A stretch of DNA of 34,593 nt from Chloroflexota bacterium (GTDB taxonomy: Bacteria > Chloroflexota > UBA11872). The DNA lies in the NCBI GenBank assembly GCA_009839425.1, contig VXPS01000110.1:1-34593 (forward strand), read 5' to 3'. The stretch's first letter is position 1. Each line of letters opens with the position of its first letter. The notes under the pieces are model-generated. The model ran no database searches, was not told where the DNA came from, and worked only from the letters and a program-made list of their open reading frames with translations. Below, piece by piece: positions 3,640 through 26,921 of this stretch. Both the position numbers and the translations under genes were made by a program.

Positions 3640-4848
3640 ATGGATCCAGGGACATCGCGAGCTGCTGGGGCGGATCTACCAACCTGCTATCGCGATGGTT
3701 ACGCCAGGGCGCGTGCGCTCGATGCGAAGGTAGCCGCCAACTACGTCGCCCACACCCGCATTGGCGATCCGGTGGCCGACGCAATGATGGCCGCGCTGGA
3801 AGAACTCGGCCCGCGAGAATCGTGGCGGATTGTTCAGGCCGCCATGGACAATTTGGAGGACGAAAGCACGCTGAACGATGCGCCGCGCGAAGTCCGGGAC
3901 TTCTTTGAGGAGTTGAAGACCCCGCCCGATTGGGTGGACGAGGCGTCGCTGATCCCCGGGATGCGCATGTTTCATCGCAATTCCAGGATCATCCTGGGGG
4001 CGTTCGTCGGCGGGACGCTGGTCGAAGGGTTCGCGACCAATATCAGCAAGTCGTTCTTTACGACTGGCCGGCTGCGCGAGCAGGGCGTTCGACGCTTGAA
4101 GCAAAACAACCGGCACATGCTGGAGATGTTCGTCCCTGGTGGCATGGATCGAGGCGGCGATGGCTGGAAACTGTCAGTTCGAGTCCGCATGGTTCACGCC
4201 CAGGTTCGGCGCCTGCTCGCAAACTCAGGCGATTGGGACTTTGATGAACTGGGCGAACCCGTGAGCGCCGCGCACCTTGGCTTTGCCATTACGGCCTTTT
4301 CCGCGCGACTGCTTAAGCACATGAAGAGTCTGGGCGCCGTCTATGACGACGAAGAACGCGCCAGTTTCATGCAGGTTTGGCGCTATAGCGGCTACCTGAT
4401 GGGCATTCCCGAGTCGATCTTGTACCGAGATGAAGCCGAAGCGTTGCGAATCTTCGAGATTGGCGGGATCTGTGAGCCCGAGCCGGACTTCGAGTGCATC
4501 GCAATGGCGAACTCACTGATCAACTCCGCCCCGCTGCTGATCGGGCTGACCGACCCCGAACAGCGCCGCCACCTTGCCAAGTACGTCTACCGGGTATCCC
4601 GCGCGCTCATCGGCAAGGACCTTGCGAACAAGCTCAAATATCCGCGCAGCCCAACGATCGGCGTTCTGCCCTGGTTCCGCATGCAAGGCCGAATCGAACG
4701 CACGTTGGGCCGGCTCTTTCACAAGCACCTGCAACAGACCAACTACACCAATCTCACGTCGTTGCTTGAAGTGTCGGTCTTTGACGAGGCCGGAATCAGC
4801 TACAAGATGCCTGATCATGTGTACGCTGAAGAATCCACCAAGTGGTAG
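3640..4848 (+). CDS. MpaB/DUF2236-type (latex-clearing-protein-like) oxygenase family protein
   Basis: GAFVGGTLVEGFATNISKSFFTTGRLREQGVRRLKQNNRHM...RVRMVHAQVRRLL...WRYSGYLMGIPE matches the DUF2236/MpaB layout. Confidence 0.8.
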   Translation: MDPGTSRAAGADLPTCYRDGYARARALDAKVAANYVAHTRIGDPVADAMMAALEELGPRESWRIVQAAMDNLEDESTLNDAPREVRDFFEELKTPPDWVDEASLIPGMRMFHRNSRIILGAFVGGTLVEGFATNISKSFFTTGRLREQGVRRLKQNNRHMLEMFVPGGMDRGGDGWKLSVRVRMVHAQVRRLLANSGDWDFDELGEPVSAAHLGFAITAFSARLLKHMKSLGAVYDDEERASFMQVWRYSGYLMGIPESILYRDEAEALRIFEIGGICEPEPDFECIAMANSLINSAPLLIGLTDPEQRRHLAKYVYRVSRALIGKDLANKLKYPRSPTIGVLPWFRMQGRIERTLGRLFHKHLQQTNYTNLTSLLEVSVFDEAGISYKMPDHVYAEESTKW

Positions 4849-16670: not shown

Positions 16671-17090
16671 GTGCCCCTTGCCACGCTGCGTGTCACGACC
16701 TCGTCTCGGACGTCGGTACATCCGATCGGCCGGCAGATCCAGGCGGCAATCGAGGGCAAGGTTCGGCGCGACTGTTTGCTGCTGGTCAGCGTTCCGCACA
16801 CGACGTGCGCCGTGACGCTAAATGAGCCTGAGCCAGGTCTCCTGGACGACTTTGCGCGGGCGTTGGAGCGCTTGATTCCGTGGGATGGGGACTACGCGCA
16901 CAACCAGGGGGCCGAGGACAATGCGGCCGCGCACGTGCGGGCCAACCTGATCGGTCACCAGGTGCTGTTGCCGGTGACGGCCGGGCGGCTGCAGATAGGC
17001 GTGTGGCAGGACGTGCTGCTGGTCGAATGCGACGGGCCGCGAAGCCGGACGGTCGACATTCGGCTACTGGCCGACCCGGACTCCAGCTAG
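16671..17090 (+). CDS. YjbQ/UPF0047 family protein
   Basis: VPHTTCAVTLNE...NAAAHVRANLIGHQVLLPVTAGRLQIGVWQDVLLVECDGPRSR; GTG start at 16671. Confidence 0.9.
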   Translation: MPLATLRVTTSSRTSVHPIGRQIQAAIEGKVRRDCLLLVSVPHTTCAVTLNEPEPGLLDDFARALERLIPWDGDYAHNQGAEDNAAAHVRANLIGHQVLLPVTAGRLQIGVWQDVLLVECDGPRSRTVDIRLLADPDSS

Positions 17091-18612
17091 AGCCCGCGTC
17101 TCTCCAGGTCGGCCAGGAAGCGGTTCCCGAAGGGCAGGGGCTGGCGGTAGCCGGGGCGGTCGGCTGAGGCGGACCAGTTACGCAGTCGTAGCTGCCGGGT
17201 GATGAGCGCGTCCGCTTGGGCCAGATAGGCGGCGGCTTCCCGGTCGCCCTGGCGCACCACGGCAATCGGGTCACCGGTCAGCACGTGCCAGGTCTTGGCG
17301 CCCGGGTGCGCCGGGCTGCGCATGGCCTGCGCGGCGGCCTGGATCAGCGGCGTGCGGTTGTACGGCTGCTGGTTTGGGTCCAGGTACGCCGGGTCCTCGA
17401 GCGTTTCCAGCCGCACCGGGGTCAGCAGATTGGTGCGGGCGAGCGCGCGTTGCGCCGGGGAGTCAAGCAGGAAACGGGCAAGGGTCCAGGCGGCGTCCGG
17501 CTCGGCGCTGTGCGACGAAATCGCCACGCACAGCTCGTTGGCCTCGGTGCGGGATTCACGGCCTTCCCAGGCGGGCAGCGGCGCCACGGCCCAGGGCAGG
17601 GTGGCACGGACCCAGCGTCCCACGTCAGTATGGTCGATGTGCATGGAAGCCAGGCCGCCGCTGAAGGGCGCCACGAACCGATAAGCCGTCGGTAGTTCGA
17701 TCGCCAGGTTGGTCTGCCAGCTGGTCAGCCGTTGCAGGCGCTCCTGGCGCTGGGGCGTCGTGAGGGTCGATGCCCGCTGCTCGGCGTCGAGAAAGTCATC
17801 GCTTCCCTGGGCCAGAACGGGGCGCGCGTACGCCGGGATGGCCGTGAGTCCGAATCTCTCCACGCGCTGATTGTTGGCGATGACCAGGCGTCGCGCGGCC
17901 TCCTCGAATTCGGCCACAGTCCAGGGAGATTGCCAGCTCATCGGCGCCGTGACGCCCACCGACTCGAGGTGTTGCGCGTTGTAGAGCACGCACTGGTGCG
18001 TGGTCCGATGCTGAGTGTCGAGATCTCGCCGCCGGCGCCGGTCCGGGCCACTGGGGCGCCGGGCGCCGCTTCGCGCAGGTCGGCGTCCATATCAACGCGC
18101 GCAGCCAGTCCGTGGAGAAAGCCCGCCGCCGTGAAGTCGAAGACGTCCTCGGGTTCGATTCGAGTGACGTCTGGTCCCTCGCCTCTTCGCAGGCGAGTCC
18201 GCAGCCGGTCGGAGGTCAGCGCGTTGTCCAGGCGCGCCTGCACCGTGACCCAGGGGATTGCCTTCCGAAACTCCTGCTCGATCTCGCGAAAGGCGCCGAG
18301 CAGCACCCGGGGGCCCCAGGTTTCGAACTGAATGGTGGCGGCGGGAGATTGGGAGGCGACGACGCTTGCGGACGCAGCTAAGGGCCGCGATGCGGCCGGT
18401 TCCGGGGTTGCGGTGGGTAGCGGCGGCGGTTGCACGACTGCCACCGGCGGCAGAGTCACTGGCGGTAGCTCAGACCCGCTCCGGTCCAACGTGCATGCAG
18501 CCAAAAGCCCGCTGCCCGCGATCAGGCTGGCCCGCATCAGTGCCCGACGCGAGAGCTCCGCGGGGTTTGCGGCCGACCGCGGCTTGCGGCGTGCCGGAGG
18601 CAGCGTGCTCAT
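17087..18612 (-). pseudogene. ABC-type extracellular solute-binding lipoprotein, frameshifted near 17985-18010
   Basis: N-terminal ORF 17938..18612 (SRRALMRASLIAGSGLLAAC lipobox; RFETWGPR-type start of the mature domain) and C-terminal ORF 17087..17989 (LYNAQHLESVGVTAPMSWQSPWTVAEFEEAARRL) join by a one-frame shift at GPRTSA / VLYNAQ. Confidence 0.8.
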
Positions 18613-18737
18613 GTGCGGGCCGCGTCGGGCAGGAGCATCAGAAATGACGGGTAAGTCCTGGTTGCTCGAGGCTCACTGGCTATTCTGACCTGAACTCCTC
18701 CACCGCTGGCGAACTCGAAAGGCTTCGCGCCATCGAC

Positions 18738-20918
18738 GTGCTGCTCTGGGCTGGCGCCTTGGCGGTGTTGTCCATTCTCGGACTGCCGTGGGCGTTCCTT
18801 TTGTGTCGACGTTTGCCCTCGCGTGGCGTGCTGCTGGCGGCGCCGGTTGGGCTGTTCCTGGCCCATTATCTCGCCTGGGCCGGACTCTCAACGGGCCTGC
18901 TCAGCAATGGCCGCGGATACGCAGCCGCCACGCTGGTGGCGTTCGCCACGCTCAGCGCGTTGCTGACCTGGATGCTGCGTCCACATCTAGGTGATTTGCG
19001 CGGCCGCGGGCGCCTGTGGGTGGTGGGCTGCATCTCGTTGCTGGTGCTGTTTGTGGTGGGCGCTGGACTTCGCTGGCTCAATCCCGAGATCGGCGGAACG
19101 GAGAAGCCCATGGACCTGGCACTGCTCAACGCCACCGCCCATGCGACGTCCTTTCCCCCGCCCGATCCGTGGTTTGCCGGCGAGACCATCAACTATTACT
19201 ACCTCGGGTACTCCATGGCCGCGTTCGGTCTGCATCTCAGCGGCGCGGAGCCGGCCGTCGGCTACAACCTGGCCCTGGCCGCGCTCTTTGCGCTTGGCGG
19301 CGTGGCTGCCGCTTCCGCCGGCTACGACCTGGCCGTGCTGACGGGCGCCGGGAGGCGAGCCCGCAAGGCGGCGGCCGTGCTGGCACTCATGCTCACCATG
19401 GTGGCCGGCAATCTGGCCGTCCTGCGCGACATCTTCTCGGAGAGCCCGGACGCGCCCACAGGCTTCTGGAGGGGCATTGGCTGGAATGCCTCGCGCACAA
19501 TTCAGCGCGAGGACGCCGGCCAGGTGATCGACTACACGATCAATGAATTCCCGGCCTTCTCCTTCGTCCTGGGCGACTTGCACCCGCACGTGATGGCGCT
19601 TCCGATCACGCTGATGGCCGTCTCGCTGGCCGTGCAGTGGATGGTGGCGGGGGCGCGGCCGCAGCCCGATTCCCTGGCCGAGCGACTCGCGCGCGGCGCC
19701 CTAACGGGGCTGGTGCTGGGAGGTCTCTATGCGCTCAATGCCTGGGACGCGCCCACGTTCGCGGGCCTGGTGCTGGCGGCTGGCGTGCTGGCGGCCTGGC
19801 GTGTGCGGTCGCGACTGCTGGCCCTGGTGCCCCCAACCGCCGCTGCGCTGATCGTGGCCGTCGCCGCCTGGCTGCCCTATACCCTGAACTATGCGCCCGG
19901 CAGCCGTGGGATCGGCGTTGTGACGGTCAGAAGCGAGGCAATCGACTACTTCCAGGTGTTCGGACTGCTGTTGGGCGCGGCGGTCGTGACTCTGGCCGTC
20001 CTGCTCTGGGATGTCCGGCCGGACGGCCGCCTCTTTCTGGTCATCCTGCTCGCCGCTGGCGCCGGGGCTACGCTGATCGCACGCGGGGAGGTGGTGGTTG
20101 CGCTGGCCGCGCTGCTCGTTCTCAGCGTCTATGCGCTCTGGACCCACCGGGCCGAGCCGGGGCTCGCGGCGCTGCTCTGGCTGCTGGTTGCCGGCCTGGG
20201 GCTCCTGACGGTCGTTGAGGCTGTCTACGTCGACGACTTCTTTGGTCCGCCTAACGAACGTATGAACACGGTGTTCAAGCTGCACTACCAAGCCTGGAGT
20301 CTGCTGGCGATTGCGGCCGGACCAGGCCTGGTTCTGGCCTGGCGGCGGCTTACCCAACCGGGCGGGTTGCGCCTGACGCTCACGCGCGCGATCGCGCTGA
20401 CCGTGTTTGCGCTGCTGGCGGTCCCGGCGCTGACCTATCCGATCGTCGCCACCAAGGCCAAGTCCGAGGCCAGTTCGGTGTCCGGATCGTTGGACGGACT
20501 GGCCGCCGACCGGCTCGGCCGACCCTCGGAGGTTGCCGCGGCCGAGTGGCTGCGCAGGCACGCCCCGGGCGGCGCCGTGCTGCTTGAGGCGCCCGGCCGC
20601 GCCTACTCCGGCGACTCGCGAATGTCCACCTGGACGGGAATCCCGAGCGTTATCGGCTGGACCCAACACGAAGAGCTGTGGCGGGAGTCCGATCCGCGGA
20701 TCGCCGCTCGTACGGCCGATACCGACACCGCCTACCGGACCGACGACTCGGCGCTGCGGCGCGCGGTGCTGGACCGCTATAGCGTGACACACGTCGTGGC
20801 CGGCGACAGCGAGCGTGACCGATATGGGCCCGAGGTCGTGGACCGCCTGGGCCAAGACCTCACGGCGGTCTTCACCGCGGGCGGCACCACGATCTTCCGG
20901 GTTGGAGCGGGCCGGTGA
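18738..20918 (+). CDS. DUF2298 / Chlor_Arch_YYY (TIGR03662-like) polytopic membrane protein
   Basis: 726 aa, very hydrophobic, with ETINYYYLGYSM (YYYxG motif at 19194-19208) and DFFGPPNERMNTVFKLHYQAW; GTG start. Confidence 0.88.
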   Translation: MLLWAGALAVLSILGLPWAFLLCRRLPSRGVLLAAPVGLFLAHYLAWAGLSTGLLSNGRGYAAATLVAFATLSALLTWMLRPHLGDLRGRGRLWVVGCISLLVLFVVGAGLRWLNPEIGGTEKPMDLALLNATAHATSFPPPDPWFAGETINYYYLGYSMAAFGLHLSGAEPAVGYNLALAALFALGGVAAASAGYDLAVLTGAGRRARKAAAVLALMLTMVAGNLAVLRDIFSESPDAPTGFWRGIGWNASRTIQREDAGQVIDYTINEFPAFSFVLGDLHPHVMALPITLMAVSLAVQWMVAGARPQPDSLAERLARGALTGLVLGGLYALNAWDAPTFAGLVLAAGVLAAWRVRSRLLALVPPTAAALIVAVAAWLPYTLNYAPGSRGIGVVTVRSEAIDYFQVFGLLLGAAVVTLAVLLWDVRPDGRLFLVILLAAGAGATLIARGEVVVALAALLVLSVYALWTHRAEPGLAALLWLLVAGLGLLTVVEAVYVDDFFGPPNERMNTVFKLHYQAWSLLAIAAGPGLVLAWRRLTQPGGLRLTLTRAIALTVFALLAVPALTYPIVATKAKSEASSVSGSLDGLAADRLGRPSEVAAAEWLRRHAPGGAVLLEAPGRAYSGDSRMSTWTGIPSVIGWTQHEELWRESDPRIAARTADTDTAYRTDDSALRRAVLDRYSVTHVVAGDSERDRYGPEVVDRLGQDLTAVFTAGGTTIFRVGAGR

Positions 20919-22618
20919 GCGCCGGCACGCACTCGGTCGGGGGTTGGCTGTCGCGCCCGGGCTGGTTTGGCTGGTCGCGCGGGGAGTGGCTGCTTTACGT
21001 CCTGATTCTGGCCGCCGCCGCGGGCCTGCGCTTCTTCGATCTGGGCGAGCGGGTCTATCACCACGACGAAGCAATTCACGCCAAAGAGTCCAACGACATG
21101 ATCAACGGCAAGCAGTTCCGGTATGACCCGGCGTACCACGGGCCGCTGCTGTATTTCGGCAATGTGGTCGTGTTCCTGGCCGCCGGGGTCACCGATGGCC
21201 TGGGGCGCGTGATCCCGGCGCTGTTTGGCGTGGCTTCGGTGGGCGCCCTGCTGATTTTCCGCCCGGAATTGGGCCGCACCGGCACGCCGCTGGCCATGGC
21301 GGCAATGACTATCTCCACGTCGTTCCTCTACTACTCGCGATTCCTGCGGATGGACATCTATGTGGCGCTGTTCACGCTGCTGCTCATCGGCTCCGTGATG
21401 CGCTATCTGGAACAGCCGCGGCGGCGCTGGATCTACCTGGCCTGGGCGACGCTGGGGCTCTCGCTGGCGACTAAGGAAAACACCTTCATTCACGGGTTTG
21501 CGCTGTTGATGGTTCTGATTGCCGTGGGTGGGCTGGCCTACCGCGCCTGGCGCCGCGGACCCGGCGCGTCTCCCCTGGGAGACCAGGCGCTCAATGCGTT
21601 TCGGTCGTTGGGATACGACGTCGAGCATGTGGTCTACGGCGCTCTGACCTTTGTGCTGATCGTGTTTGCGTTCTATACGTCGTTCCTCACCCACCTTCCG
21701 GGTTTCCGTGCGGCGTTCACCAGTTCCATCGAGTACTGGACCAGCGTCCATGAGTCCGAGCGGGTCAATCAGCCGTGGTTCTATTACGCGATGTTCCTGG
21801 GTCTGTACGAGCCGTTTGCGCTCTTGTTTGGTGCGGTTGCCCTGGTTCGCGGGCGCAGTGCCAGGCACTTGCTGCCGTTTGTGCTGGGCGTGTGGATCGT
21901 CGTGACGTGGATCGTCTATTCGGCGGCCGGCGAGAAGGCGCCGTGGCTGGTGCTGCACCTGCTGTGGCCGCCGATGTTGCTGGCGTGCTGGTGGGTGGGC
22001 CGCTGGTTCGATGAGACCCGTCCTCGCATTCCTCGATTCGTTGTGGGGCTGCTTAGCACCGGCCTGCTCTTCTGGACCCTGTGGTTCGCCGTTCCAATTA
22101 CGTACGAGCGGGGCAGCGTGCCCAACGACCTGGTCGTGTACGTGCAGTCCACGGATGACGTGAAGACAGTCGCCACGATCGCGGACGAGGTCGCCAGGCG
22201 GACCGGTCAGGGCGAGAAGCTGTCCATCCTCATCGACAACAACTACGCCTGGCCGACGGTCTGGTACCTGCGCGACTACACGGACGCGCTGTACACGAAG
22301 GACATGAACCTGGAGGACGCCCAGCAGGCGCAGATCGTGCTCATGTCGCCGTCCAGTGCCGACACACTGGGCATCCAGCTTCCCGAATTCGTGGGCCGAC
22401 GGATGAAGCTGCGGTGGTGGTTCCCGGAGCACACGTACAAGAGCTGGAGCCTGGGATTCCTGGGCGAGTTCCTGGCGGATCCGCAAGCGCGGACTTCGTT
22501 CCTACACTGGTTATTGACGCGCGAGGAGCCGCCGGTTCCCAAGGGCTCGTATGACTTCATGCTGTATGTGCGAACCGACCTGCTGAACGAGGGACCGCTG
22601 GGGCCGTTCCGGCTGTGA
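20915..22618 (+). CDS. TIGR03663-like membrane protein, distantly related to dolichyl-phosphate-mannose mannosyltransferases
   Basis: VYHHDEAIHAKESNDM (DE) and DPAYHGPLLYF (HGP) motifs; polytopic; starts in a 4-bp overlap with the YYY gene. Confidence 0.88.
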   Translation: MSAGTHSVGGWLSRPGWFGWSRGEWLLYVLILAAAAGLRFFDLGERVYHHDEAIHAKESNDMINGKQFRYDPAYHGPLLYFGNVVVFLAAGVTDGLGRVIPALFGVASVGALLIFRPELGRTGTPLAMAAMTISTSFLYYSRFLRMDIYVALFTLLLIGSVMRYLEQPRRRWIYLAWATLGLSLATKENTFIHGFALLMVLIAVGGLAYRAWRRGPGASPLGDQALNAFRSLGYDVEHVVYGALTFVLIVFAFYTSFLTHLPGFRAAFTSSIEYWTSVHESERVNQPWFYYAMFLGLYEPFALLFGAVALVRGRSARHLLPFVLGVWIVVTWIVYSAAGEKAPWLVLHLLWPPMLLACWWVGRWFDETRPRIPRFVVGLLSTGLLFWTLWFAVPITYERGSVPNDLVVYVQSTDDVKTVATIADEVARRTGQGEKLSILIDNNYAWPTVWYLRDYTDALYTKDMNLEDAQQAQIVLMSPSSADTLGIQLPEFVGRRMKLRWWFPEHTYKSWSLGFLGEFLADPQARTSFLHWLLTREEPPVPKGSYDFMLYVRTDLLNEGPLGPFRL

Positions 22619-23949
22619 AAGTTGTGATCGTCGGCGCCGGAATCACCGGCCTGGCTCTGTCGCATGAGCTGCTGAAGCTGGGCCACGGCGTCACGCTGGT
22701 TGAGGCGGCGCCGCGGCCGGGCGGCGAGCTGGCGACGGTGGAGGTGGGCGGGGAGCCGGTGGAGCGGTTCTACCACCATCTGTTCACCCACGACAGCTTC
22801 ATGATCGGCCTGGCGGAAGAGCTGGGTGTCGGGAACCGGCTGGAGTGGCCGGAGCCGGAGATGGGCTACTACCTGGGCGGCCGGCTCTACCCGTTCACCT
22901 CGCCGCTGGATCTGCTGAAGTTCGGGGCATTGAGCCCGTGGGCGCGGCTGCGGCTGGGGCTTGGATCGGTACTGCTGCAGCGCCGACGCGACTATGGGCC
23001 GTTTGAAGACCGGACGGCGGCGGAGGTGTTGCCGCGGTATGTGGGCCGCGAAGCGTTCGAAGCCATCTTCGCCTCGATGCTGCGGGCCAAGTTCGCGGGG
23101 CACTGGGAATCGGTGTCGATGGCCTGGATGTGGGCGCGGCTGATGGCCCGGGCGCGCACGCGGACGGCCGACAAGCGGCGGGAACGGCTGGGGTATTTCC
23201 GCGGGAGTTTCCGGGTGATTGTGGACGCGCTGGCGGACTCGGTGACAAAGCGTGGGGCGGAGCTGCGGCTGGCTTCGCCGGTGCAAGAGATCACGATCGG
23301 GGAGCCGGGCGCGCCGGCTTTGCGGGTGAATGACGAGCCGCTGGAGGCGGACGCGGTGGCGGCGACGGTGGGGCTGCCGATCATCCGGCGGCTGCTGCCG
23401 GCGTCACGGCGCGGGTTCACGGACTCGCTGGCGGCCACGTCGTATGTGGGGGCGTGCGTGGCATTGATCCAGATTCGCGAGCAGCTGTCGCGCTATTACT
23501 GGACCAACATCGGCGACCGCGACCTGCCGTTTGCCGGGCTAATCGAGCACACGAACTACGTCGATCGCGAGCGCTACGGCGGCAAGCGGCTGCTGTACGT
23601 GAGCAATTACCTGCCGCCGGAGCACGAGTTTTTCCAGCTGGACGACGACGTGCTGATCGAGCGGTTCGTGGATCCGATTGCGAAGGTGTTTCCGACGTTT
23701 CGGCGGGAGCACATCGAGGAGGCGTGGGTGTCGCGGGATCCGGTGGCGCAGCCGGTGATCGAGGCCGGATACCAGCGACGCAAGCCGCCGTATCCGTCGC
23801 CGATTCCCGGGTTCTACATCTGCAACACGGCGCAGATTTACCCGGAGGACCGGGGGACGAACTACAACGTGCGGATAGCGAAGGAATGCGCGGCGCAGCT
23901 GGAAGCTGATGCGCCGAAGCTGGTCGCGCGGCGGAGCGCGGACACCTAG
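22615..23949 (+). CDS. NAD(P)/FAD-dependent oxidoreductase (amine oxidase / protoporphyrinogen oxidase-like)
   Basis: N-terminal VVIVGAGITGLALSHELLKLGHGVTLVEAAPRPGG Rossmann motif; PIPGFYICNTAQIYPEDRGTNYNVRIAKECA C-terminal FAD motif; 4-bp overlap with the upstream gene. Confidence 0.9.
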   Translation: MKVVIVGAGITGLALSHELLKLGHGVTLVEAAPRPGGELATVEVGGEPVERFYHHLFTHDSFMIGLAEELGVGNRLEWPEPEMGYYLGGRLYPFTSPLDLLKFGALSPWARLRLGLGSVLLQRRRDYGPFEDRTAAEVLPRYVGREAFEAIFASMLRAKFAGHWESVSMAWMWARLMARARTRTADKRRERLGYFRGSFRVIVDALADSVTKRGAELRLASPVQEITIGEPGAPALRVNDEPLEADAVAATVGLPIIRRLLPASRRGFTDSLAATSYVGACVALIQIREQLSRYYWTNIGDRDLPFAGLIEHTNYVDRERYGGKRLLYVSNYLPPEHEFFQLDDDVLIERFVDPIAKVFPTFRREHIEEAWVSRDPVAQPVIEAGYQRRKPPYPSPIPGFYICNTAQIYPEDRGTNYNVRIAKECAAQLEADAPKLVARRSADT

Positions 23950-24674
23950 CCACCGCCCCAGACCCGGATGCGGCCCCGGCCGCCGACTTCTGGAACTGCG
24001 TGCGACACGTCGACCTGGGCGCAGTAGATCACGTCGTCCCACAGGCCGACGGGCTCGAGCGCCTGCCCGCTGCGGGAGGCGGCCAGGGCGGCTTCGGCGG
24101 AGGGGTAGGCGCCGGCCACGTGGAGCGCGGCGACGGCTGATTCGTCGAGGGTGAGGTCCGGTGACGCGTCTCGCAGGCGCTGGACGATCACGCCGGCCGT
24201 GTAAACGTCGTCCAGCGCCAGGGCGCCGCTGCGGCCGGCGCAGGCGATGGTGATGGTTGGGGCGTCGGGGTCCTCCAGCAGGCAATCAGCCACCGCGCCC
24301 GCGTTGCGGAGTCCGGCGATGCAGGTGCGGCGCGAGTGGCCCCAGCGTTCGATGGCGTAGGCGCCGTTGGTGGTGGAGAGGACGGCGCGGCGGCCGGTCA
24401 GGTCGGCGTGTTGGAACTCAAGCGGCGAGTTGCCGTGGTCGAAGCCCTGGGGCGGCAGGCCGCCGCGTTCGCCGCAGAGGAGGGTGCCGGGGCCGAGCTG
24501 CCTGGCGGCCTCGCGGGCGGCGTCGACGTCGCCCGCAATCCAGACCTCGGGGTCACCGGCCTCGGCCATCGCAACGAGGGTGGTGGTGGCGCGGATCACG
24601 TCCACAACGGCGCAGACGCCCTGGGGATCGGGGGGCAGGGTGCCGGGGAGGAGTTCGACGCGGACGAGGGTCAT
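23946..24674 (-). CDS. comB: 2-phosphosulfolactate phosphatase family protein (ComB-like)
   Basis: VVDVIRATTTLVAMAEAG, LCGERGG, GFDHGNSPLEF, VLSTTNGAYAI, CAGRSGALALDDVYTAG; ATG at 24672-24674 (track start 24761 is too long). Confidence 0.85.
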   Translation of the reverse strand: MTLVRVELLPGTLPPDPQGVCAVVDVIRATTTLVAMAEAGDPEVWIAGDVDAAREAARQLGPGTLLCGERGGLPPQGFDHGNSPLEFQHADLTGRRAVLSTTNGAYAIERWGHSRRTCIAGLRNAGAVADCLLEDPDAPTITIACAGRSGALALDDVYTAGVIVQRLRDASPDLTLDESAVAALHVAGAYPSAEAALAASRSGQALEPVGLWDDVIYCAQVDVSHAVPEVGGRGRIRVWGGG

Positions 24675-26035
24675 AGGCGAATGGTCTGCCAGCGGCCGGA
24701 CGCAAAGCGGATCAGGGAGGCGACGGCGATGGTGACGTAGTTGACTCCGGCGCCGATCCACAAGCCGGTGAGACCGAAGCCGAGGACGACGCCGAGGACG
24801 AGGGCCAGGGGAACCCGGATGGTCCAGAGGGCGAGCAGGGAGATCAGCAGCATGGCGCGGGTGTCACCGGCGCCGCGCAGGGCGCTGGGCAGGATGGTTG
24901 CCAGCCCCACGACGGGCATGAACAGCCCGATCGTTCGCACCGGCAGTTCGCCCGCGTCCAGCACTGCCGGATCCGTTGTGAAGACCGACATCAGCGCCCG
25001 CGGAAACAGGAACACCACCACGCCCACCAGCGTGGAGACCAGCGTGCCGGCGATGGCCGCCTCGCGCCCGTAGCGGTGGGCCAGCTGCGGGTCTCGCGCT
25101 CCCAGGCTCTGGCCCACGGCCGTGGAGGCGGCGACGCCCAGGCCAAGCGATGGCATGTAGGCCAGCGACATGATGGGGCCGACGACGTTCTGGGCGGCGA
25201 ATGACACCGTGCCCAGCTGCAGGCCGATGATGCTGAACGCCATGATCCCGCCGATGGTGATAAACATTTCGCCGACGGCGGGCCCGGAGACCCGCAGCAG
25301 GCGCCGCTGCATGGTCCAGTCGGGCCGGTAGGAGCCGAAGCTGCCGGCGCGGTGGGGGGTGCGGTAGATGGCGACGAGCATGAAGATCGCGGTGGCCAGG
25401 CGGGCGACGCCCATGGCCACGGCAATGCCCAGCAGGCCGAAGCCGGCGGTCACCAGCACCAGGCCAACCACCAGGTCGACACCGGCCATCAGCACCGAGC
25501 CGAGCATGGGGGTGCGGGTGTCGCCGACGCCGCGCTGGACGGCGCCAACCATCACCACCACGGTTTGCAAGGGGGCGCTGATGGCGCTGATGGCCAGGTA
25601 GGGGGCGGCCATGGCGACGATGTCCTCGGAGCCGCCGACCAGGCGAAGAATCGGGTCGGCCCAGAGGACCAGGACGAACACGGAGATGAAGGAGGCGAGA
25701 ACGGCGGTGAGCATGCCCTGGCGGCCTGCCGTGTGAGCCGTGGCGAGGTCGCGCGCGCCAAAGGAGCGGGCCACCAGCGCCAGGCACCCGATGCTCATGC
25801 CAAAAAACAGCGAGAAGGTAAAGAACATCAGGAAGTTGGAGATGCCGGCCGCCGCCAGGGCCTCGGCGCCCAGGCGGCCGGCGAGCGCGGTGTTGATCAT
25901 GAACAGCGCGCTCTGCATCAGGTTCTCGAGCATGGCCGGCCAGCCGAGCGCGAAGAGGCGGCGGCGGATCTGACGCAGGGGCAGTTGAGGTGGGCCCGCG
26001 GCGGGGGAGGGCGCAACCGGACGCGCAGACGGCAA
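24671..26035 (-). CDS. MATE family efflux transporter
   Basis: Twelve-TM-like protein; GWPAMLENLMQSALFMINTALAGRLGAEALAAAG and GLGVAASTAVGQSLGARDPQ motifs. Confidence 0.9.
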   Translation of the reverse strand: MPSARPVAPSPAAGPPQLPLRQIRRRLFALGWPAMLENLMQSALFMINTALAGRLGAEALAAAGISNFLMFFTFSLFFGMSIGCLALVARSFGARDLATAHTAGRQGMLTAVLASFISVFVLVLWADPILRLVGGSEDIVAMAAPYLAISAISAPLQTVVVMVGAVQRGVGDTRTPMLGSVLMAGVDLVVGLVLVTAGFGLLGIAVAMGVARLATAIFMLVAIYRTPHRAGSFGSYRPDWTMQRRLLRVSGPAVGEMFITIGGIMAFSIIGLQLGTVSFAAQNVVGPIMSLAYMPSLGLGVAASTAVGQSLGARDPQLAHRYGREAAIAGTLVSTLVGVVVFLFPRALMSVFTTDPAVLDAGELPVRTIGLFMPVVGLATILPSALRGAGDTRAMLLISLLALWTIRVPLALVLGVVLGFGLTGLWIGAGVNYVTIAVASLIRFASGRWQTIRL

Positions 26036-26266
26036 CCGGCTTCCCCCGAAATGTCAGCGACCGAGAGTGGTTCGAAGGGATTCTAAGGCGGGGCGGGGTG
26101 GCCTGTGGCGACGGTGCTGAATGGCGACGCCTTGACCGGCAGACCCTCGCCCCGACCCTCTCCCACTGGCGAGTGAGGAAGAGGGGACCGGGGTGCGTTC
26201 GACGATCCGATCGGAGCGGGTTTGGGGGGCGATTGACGCGCGGTGGTTCAGCGGTTGGGGGTGCAC

Positions 26267-26320
26267 GGAAGACCCTCACCGCATGCCGGCGGGACGCCGG
26301 AGGCTTCCTCTCTCTCCTAG
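26267..26320 (+). repeat. Dispersed hairpin-bearing repeat, copy 1 left half (interrupted by IS)
   Basis: CGGAAGACCCTCACCG + CCGGCG-GGA-CGCCGG hairpin (26286-26300) + CCTCTCTCTCCTAG; parallels copy 2 at 30041-30112. Confidence 0.55.
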
Positions 26321-26921
26321 GAGACCTTTGCAAACCCGGGTGGGCGCCGCATGGTGACGACCAGCAGCTTGACCACCGAGGATCGTGGCGATGCATTGGT
26401 CGACCCAGCCGCTGGAATTGATCGACGCCTGGCTGCCGCCGCGAGTGGGCCGCAATGTACGGCTGGAGCGGCTGACCGAGCTCATCGACTGGACGCCGCT
26501 CGCGGTCTTGGTCGCCGACCTGCACGCCGCGCCGGTGCGGCGGCTGAGCACACATCACCCCCGACTGAGCCCGGCGGCGCGCCACCGCCAGGCCCGGATC
26601 GACCGGGTGCGGCGGCCGGTGGAGCATGTGTTTGGGACGTTGAAACGCTCCTACGGCTACCAGCGGGTGCGTTACCGCGGCCTGGCCTGCAATTCCGCCG
26701 AGATGTGGTTCAAGGTGCTGGCCTACAACCTGCGCCGCGCGGACCGGCTGCCGACCGACGCCCCCGCCTAGCCCTCGGCGCATTGCGTCCTCGCCCCGGT
26801 CCGGGGCGGGGTCGACCCGCCGCCACGGGCGGCCACCGGGGCTGTCGCACCTCTCGCCCCATCCCATCACGCGACCGCGCCGTCCTTCGGCGCTGCCCAG
26901 GGCGCATTGCGCAGAGGTCTC
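26321..26921 (+). mobile_element. Internally deleted IS5-like insertion sequence (about 600 bp)
   Basis: Left end GAGACCTTTGC and right end GCAGAGGTCTC (inverted, one mismatch), flanked by CTAG (26317-26320) and CTTG (26922-26925); contains a short transposase ORF. Confidence 0.65.
26385..26771 (+). pseudogene. IS5-family transposase with internal in-frame deletion (N-terminal piece fused to C-terminal piece)
   Basis: LERLTELIDWTPLAVLVADLHAAPVRRL (N-terminal-like) joined to RLSPAARHRQARIDRVRRPVEHVFGTLKRSYGYQRVRYRGLACNSAEMWFKVLAYNLRRA (C-terminal-like); only 128 aa. Confidence 0.75.

Follow-up and report, generated by a model that had tools for sequence, protein, structure and literature searches.

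The window analysed here is the 34,593-nt stretch at positions 1–34,593 of contig VXPS01000110.1 of a Chloroflexota bacterium (assembly GCA_009839425.1), and our subject is an operon within it that joins two membrane-protein genes to a flavoenzyme gene. The three open reading frames (ORFs), here genes 1 to 3, lie on the + strand at 18738–20918, 20915–22618 and 22615–23949, encode 726, 567 and 444 amino acids, respectively, and each start with GTG. A preliminary description of this DNA had noted that the genes overlap within GTGA start/stop sequences. The ORF coordinates and both junction sequences confirmed these 4-nt overlaps on the + strand at 20915–20918 (genes 1/2) and 22615–22618 (genes 2/3). 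A GGAG sequence at 20903–20906 is located 8 nt upstream of the gene 2 GTG. The products of genes 1, 2 and 3 were 87, 93 and 96% identical to those of their closest relative, L032, which is of the same genus, and nucleotide substitutions at codon positions 1/2/3 numbered 65/46/155, 33/19/144 and 27/5/100, respectively. This strong bias towards codon position 3 shows that each of the three frames is genuine and under purifying selection. Both genera that were retrieved from the window's family (L032 and L033) share the −4 overlaps; in other families, the same genes are mostly separated by about −20 to +120 nt, a few gaps being larger. A scan of 18300–24300 for sigma-70 consensus promoters found none, approximately the chance expectation. 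Overall, the operon is real and conserved.

Gene 1 encodes a polytopic membrane protein that matched TIGR03662 over its full length (residues 2–722) at 485 bits (cut-off 300), and PF10060 (DUF2298) with an E-value of 4e-104. The YYYxG motif pointed out in the preliminary description is present as YYYLG at residues 153–157 (19194–19208, + strand) and is conserved across the phylum: in an alignment of 21 Chloroflexota sequences, Y154 and G157 were invariant, and Y153 and Y155 nearly so. GT-C enzymes have a conserved acidic residue in the first extracytoplasmic loop; in gene 1, E122, D143 and D280 were also invariant, but none of them aligned to a known active site. A search of PDB sequences with gene 1 yielded no match. 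We then considered its AlphaFold2 (AF2) model, which had a predicted local distance difference test score (pLDDT) of 89.2 and a predicted template modelling score (pTM) of 0.92. According to Foldseek, this model matched AglB (E 5e-7), AftA (1.5e-5), ArnT (5e-4) and the C-mannosyltransferase DPY19, all with a probability of 1.00, although the TM-scores were only 0.30–0.45. These data suggest a GT-C-like fold for gene 1 and, at the level of a model, link DUF2298 to the GT-C glycosyltransferases.

Gene 2 encodes a member of TIGR03663, the Agl23 family, scoring 273 bits against that profile (cut-off 126) and 4e-8 against Pfam PMT_2. As anticipated, genes 1 and 2 thus exceed the curated cut-offs of TIGR03662 and TIGR03663, respectively, by a wide margin. 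Gene 2 contains HHDE at residues 49–52 (21059–21070, + strand) and HGP at residues 75–77 (21137–21145, + strand). The DE and HGP motifs singled out earlier are therefore present, and D51, E52, H75 and G76 were invariant among the 19 Chloroflexota sequences aligned. The family profile matched ArnT in the PDB (5ezm, E 4.6e-6), with D51-E52 aligned to the 'DE' that follows the first transmembrane helix of ArnT. The AF2 model of gene 2 (pLDDT 87.7) matched ArnT with Foldseek TM-scores of 0.58/0.61, and also AglB, ALG12 and Pmt4, the probability being 1.00 for ArnT, AglB and Pmt4, making the predicted GT-C fold firmer for gene 2 than for gene 1. The models thus bear out the suggestion that both proteins are GT-C-like, neither having a fold unrelated to those enzymes. 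Profile homology between genes 1 and 2 was rejected (hhalign probability 0.7%), such that any relation between them is one of fold. Many other Chloroflexota families have a longer TIGR03663 protein, of 900–1100 amino acids in total, that ends in an NHL-repeat-like domain (L041, L048 and L062); the window's version lacks this domain. STT3/AglB (PF02516) was over its cut-off in none of 13 genomes of the window's genus.

The preliminary description held that the two membrane-protein families have no assigned function. For gene 2 this is outdated, because an experimentally supported relative, the Agl23 of Haloarcula hispanica, flips a lipid-linked oligosaccharide: the purified protein moves Man5GlcNAc2-PP-dolichol across liposome membranes, and Agl23 can stand in for Rft1 in yeast (PMC11182771). 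At least as cited in that paper, Lu et al. 2020 concerns Agl22/Agl23 and hexose-P-dolichol. Among the papers that our literature search covered, none named TIGR03663 or PRK07233, the family of gene 3. The NCBIfam name for TIGR03663, 'flippase activity-associated protein Agl23', together with the liposome and yeast data, favours the idea that genes 1 and 2 are purely flippases or scaffolds without transferase activity. We consider this rather unlikely, as the modelled GT-C folds of both proteins speak against it, as does the invariant D51-E52 pair, whose alignment with the ArnT 'DE' is what would be expected of a catalytic site.

Gene 3 encodes a flavin adenine dinucleotide (FAD)-dependent oxidoreductase of family NF005560 (PRK07233; 461 bits, cut-off 252), within the amine-oxidase/HpnE/phytoene-desaturase branch. 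It carries the GxGxxG FAD-binding motif at residues 7–12 (22633–22650, + strand), with G7, G9 and G12 invariant, and, near the C-terminus, a family signature, QxYPEDRGTNY, at residues 407–417 (23833–23865, + strand). In the 19-sequence alignment, Q407, Y409, P410, D412, R413, G414, N416 and Y417 of this signature were invariant. The best PDB match, over most of the length, was phytoene desaturase (5mog). All members of the flavoenzyme family that were scanned also matched HpnE, PDS, ZDS and CrtD, enzymes that act on isoprenoid chains.

The preliminary description had proposed comparison with amine-oxidase and UDP-galactopyranose mutase (UGM) models. The former matched (PF01593, Amino_oxidase, 1e-31) and the latter did not: gene 3 has no PF03275 GLF domain, and UGM scored well below phytoene desaturase and PPOX, so that a UGM-like identity was rejected. 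The possibility that the enzyme is nevertheless mutase-like, interconverting pyranose and furanose forms of a lipid- or nucleotide-linked sugar, draws on the shared Rossmann FAD fold, the presence of UGM 1i8t among the distant matches and the furanose context in Pseudomonadota described below. We regard it as highly improbable in view of the missing GLF match, scores of 42–45 bits for UGM against 72–79 for phytoene desaturase, and the fact that the sugar of the decaprenyl-phospho-arabinose (DPA)-type operon is a furanose from the start, being derived from phosphoribosyl pyrophosphate.

The next best equivalog of gene 3 was HpnE (TIGR03467), at 57–58 bits (cut-off 283). Given that similarity and the tandem SQS_PSY genes in the genome, the flavoenzyme could be a hopanoid/carotenoid-type, HpnE-like isoprenoid enzyme co-transcribed with genes 1 and 2 by chance. 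However, a separate, true HpnE (415 bits) is encoded on a different contig, next to the SQS_PSY pair (G000:C118:13499-16452), whereas gene 3 falls far below the cut-off and was rejected as HpnE. Moreover, linkage in 12 families and, independently, in two other phyla would be unexpected for a hitchhiker; we therefore judge this explanation quite unlikely. The arrangement of tandem SQS_PSY genes followed by HpnE suggests that squalene is synthesized via the hpnCDE route in the window's genus.

To place the operon in its phylum, a single set of 301 Chloroflexota genomes was screened for all three families. TIGR03663, TIGR03662 and NF005560 were over cut-off in 191, 193 and 201 genomes, respectively. 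The co-occurrence of the first two had been called sporadic, a term that does not fit families each over cut-off in approximately 64% of the sample. In at least 34 of the 301 genomes, from 12 families, NF005560 followed TIGR03663 on its 3' side in the same orientation, either immediately or at a distance of up to about 3.5 kb; the rough chance expectation for such proximity, with order and strand free, is about five genomes. Of the window's family, 18 members were sampled, and every one showed the linkage, with one locus truncated at a contig end. The oxidoreductase is thus conserved beside the TIGR03662/TIGR03663 pair in relatives, as the preliminary description had envisaged. In a tree, the window's flavoenzyme was found in a fully supported clade with the TIGR03663-linked copies of its order.

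The usual order in 40 mapped loci was ftsY – TIGR03662 – TIGR03663 – PF03706 – NF005560, where ftsY is what we take the gene to be from reading the sequence of cluster c1 rather than from a profile match. The PF03706 gene (LPG_synthase_TM; TIGR00374) is flippase-like. The set of three described earlier is complete in the window, but the normal set elsewhere includes this fourth gene, which that description did not mention. The window's family lacks it at the locus; in the window's genus it adjoins Wzy_C and GT4 genes elsewhere. Flavoenzyme similarity alone was used to retrieve 80 named loci. Of these, 56 had TIGR03663 upstream in the same orientation and 64 had the PF03706 gene; the sample is biased to its TIGR03663-linked query, and part of the remaining loci are cut by contig ends. 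One Chloroflexota locus had a GT2 gene resembling dolichol-P-mannose synthase (DPMS) within the cluster.

The flavoenzyme family also occurs outside Chloroflexota. In a search of 72,556 plasmid records, NF005560-type proteins were found in eight, seven from Pseudomonadota and one from Embleya (Actinomycetota). All seven Pseudomonadota plasmids carried the same operon, established by tblastn in the two that are unannotated: DPPR synthase (PRK08238) – DprE1 – DprE2 – epimerase – flavoenzyme – GtrA. The DPPR-synthase gene is of the UbiA/HAD prenyltransferase type, the epimerase is NAD-dependent, and the DprE1 and DprE2 homologues scored 319–373 and 161 bits, respectively. These genes correspond to a decaprenyl-phospho-arabinose type pathway with a flippase (PMC11127046) and to noeCHOP (PMC5080398). 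In Embleya, the flavoenzyme gene overlaps a GT2 gene; among solved structures, this GT2 is most closely related to the GtrB-type sll0501, ArnC and dolichol-P-mannose synthase. A tblastn search of the plasmid records with TIGR03663 proteins found nothing, and one scan across genome contigs yielded Chloroflexota alone, with no archaeal loci. DprE1 was not over cut-off in any of the 13 genomes of the window's genus, the best scores being about 53–55 bits and confined to the N-terminal FAD-domain part; DPMS-like GT2 genes are present in that genus. The element shared across the three phyla is a polyprenyl-monophosphate sugar and, because the sugars differ between contexts, the DprE1-type gene being absent from the window's genus, the common item is the polyprenyl phosphate.

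The main rival to an action on the carrier is an action on the sugar: the flavoenzyme would oxidize or reduce the sugar of a polyprenyl-P-sugar, as DprE1 does, and the GT-C proteins would transfer the modified sugar. The position of the flavoenzyme in Pseudomonadota, between DprE-type sugar-modifying enzymes and GtrA, is consistent with this. By contrast, that operon already contains DprE1 and DprE2, the flavoenzyme belongs to the HpnE/PDS branch rather than to the family of DprE1, and the Chloroflexota operon lacks a partner short-chain dehydrogenase/reductase or other sugar enzyme. On balance, we hold action on the sugar to be unlikely.

We propose instead, with a probability of about 50%, that the operon encodes an extracytoplasmic lipid-linked-sugar glycosylation module in which the flavoenzyme modifies the polyprenyl carrier. 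We infer the following for its substrate, for the reaction and for the direction in which it flips or transfers. Sugars carried on polyprenyl (or dolichyl-like) monophosphate would serve a membrane glycosylation module of three genes. The Agl23-type gene 2 and the DUF2298 gene 1 would use and/or translocate the polyprenyl-P-sugar on the outer side of the cytoplasmic membrane, and gene 3 would be a dedicated flavoenzyme that chemically alters this donor's polyprenyl carrier. Judging from HpnE and phytoene desaturase, the most likely reaction of gene 3 would be a reduction or other redox change of the carrier's isoprene chain. A redox change of the carrier is suggested because the nearest relatives of gene 3 act on isoprenoid chains and gene 3 is not itself HpnE. 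The envelope-glycosylation reading of the preliminary description is thus partly supported in its direction: the folds and the gene linkage agree with it, and its appeals to UGM, to sporadic occurrence and to a lack of function have been set aside. Its suggestion that the flavoenzyme acts on a lipid-linked sugar or a polyprenol is strengthened by the context in two other phyla.

Several observations weigh against carrier modification or temper it. The similarity of gene 3 to HpnE and PDS is distant (58–79 bits), with PPOX and amine oxidases close behind, and enzymes resembling geranylgeranyl reductase, which could themselves be what saturates isoprene chains, are encoded in the window's genus. 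In some Thermomicrobiales (L134, L139, L143, L153 and relatives), the flavoenzyme gene follows secD/secF at loci without TIGR03663, in most cases with an H+-pyrophosphatase gene between secD-secF and NF005560; this is a second context that is conserved. In much of the phylum, NF005560 and TIGR03663 occur at separate loci; their link is frequent, not universal. Finally, genes 1 and 2 may act as transferases, as flippases or in both roles.

A more specific version of the carrier proposal, which we advance as a speculation unlikely to be right, is that the NF005560 flavoenzyme saturates the carrier's alpha isoprene, the unit next to the phosphate, yielding a dolichyl-type phosphate for the Chloroflexota Agl23/GT-C systems and, by extension, acting likewise in archaea and in the Pseudomonadota arabinofuranose pathway. 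To our knowledge, no archaeal enzyme has been assigned to alpha-isoprene saturation. In Haloferax, partial saturation at the alpha position persists in a mutant without geranylgeranyl reductase (PMC10821996). The data tie an unstudied, widespread flavoenzyme family, found in 201 of the 301 Chloroflexota genomes, to polyprenyl-phosphate-sugar metabolism via independent contexts in three phyla. If the carrier is indeed modified, a step missing from the account of how prokaryotes make their glycan carriers would be directly testable in tractable Pseudomonadota.

Elsewhere in the window, an extracellular solute-binding lipoprotein gene (17087–18612, − strand) is split into two overlapping frames of 224 and 300 amino acids that correspond to one 596-amino-acid ORF in L032. 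The break lies near 17986–18001 and stems either from a frameshift that the strain itself carries or from faulty assembly. A 668-amino-acid ORF at 24864–26870 (− strand) has no Pfam match and overlaps a 454-amino-acid ORF conserved in L032; the longer frame is probably not the real gene. At 3640–4848, 14 kb from the operon, a gene for a protein with an MPAB/Lcp rubber-oxygenase catalytic domain adjoins an MMPL transporter gene, and its product is possibly another polyisoprenoid-active enzyme.

In general, the operon belongs to the known lipid-linked-sugar GT-C glycosylation systems, its new element being the unstudied flavoenzyme. It resembles Agl22/Agl23 of Haloarcula hispanica in that gene 2 exceeds the TIGR03663 cut-off and a lipid-linked hexose donor would be used outside the cell. 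By contrast, the window's operon is bacterial, couples gene 2 translationally to DUF2298 and the flavoenzyme, and has no GT2 (Agl22) gene, the DPMS-like GT2 genes being elsewhere in the genome. The decaprenyl-phospho-arabinose pathway, noeCHOP and the Pseudomonas D-arabinofuranose (D-Araf) cluster are related through the same flavoenzyme family, which occurs inside the plasmid DPPR synthase–DprE1–DprE2–GtrA operon; however, the window's genus lacks DprE1, and the mycobacterial pathway, as PMC11127046 describes it, does not include the flavoenzyme. HpnE and plant-type phytoene desaturase share the FAD superfamily of gene 3 and are its nearest sequence relatives, but gene 3 has the distinct C-terminal YPEDRGTNY signature and the genome encodes its HpnE separately. 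Finally, the three-component periplasmic systems (GtrA/GtrB/GT-C; PMC11127046) follow the same logic of a polyprenyl-P-sugar synthase, a flippase and a GT-C enzyme, whereas the window's GT-C families are different ones and are accompanied by an extra, conserved flavoenzyme.

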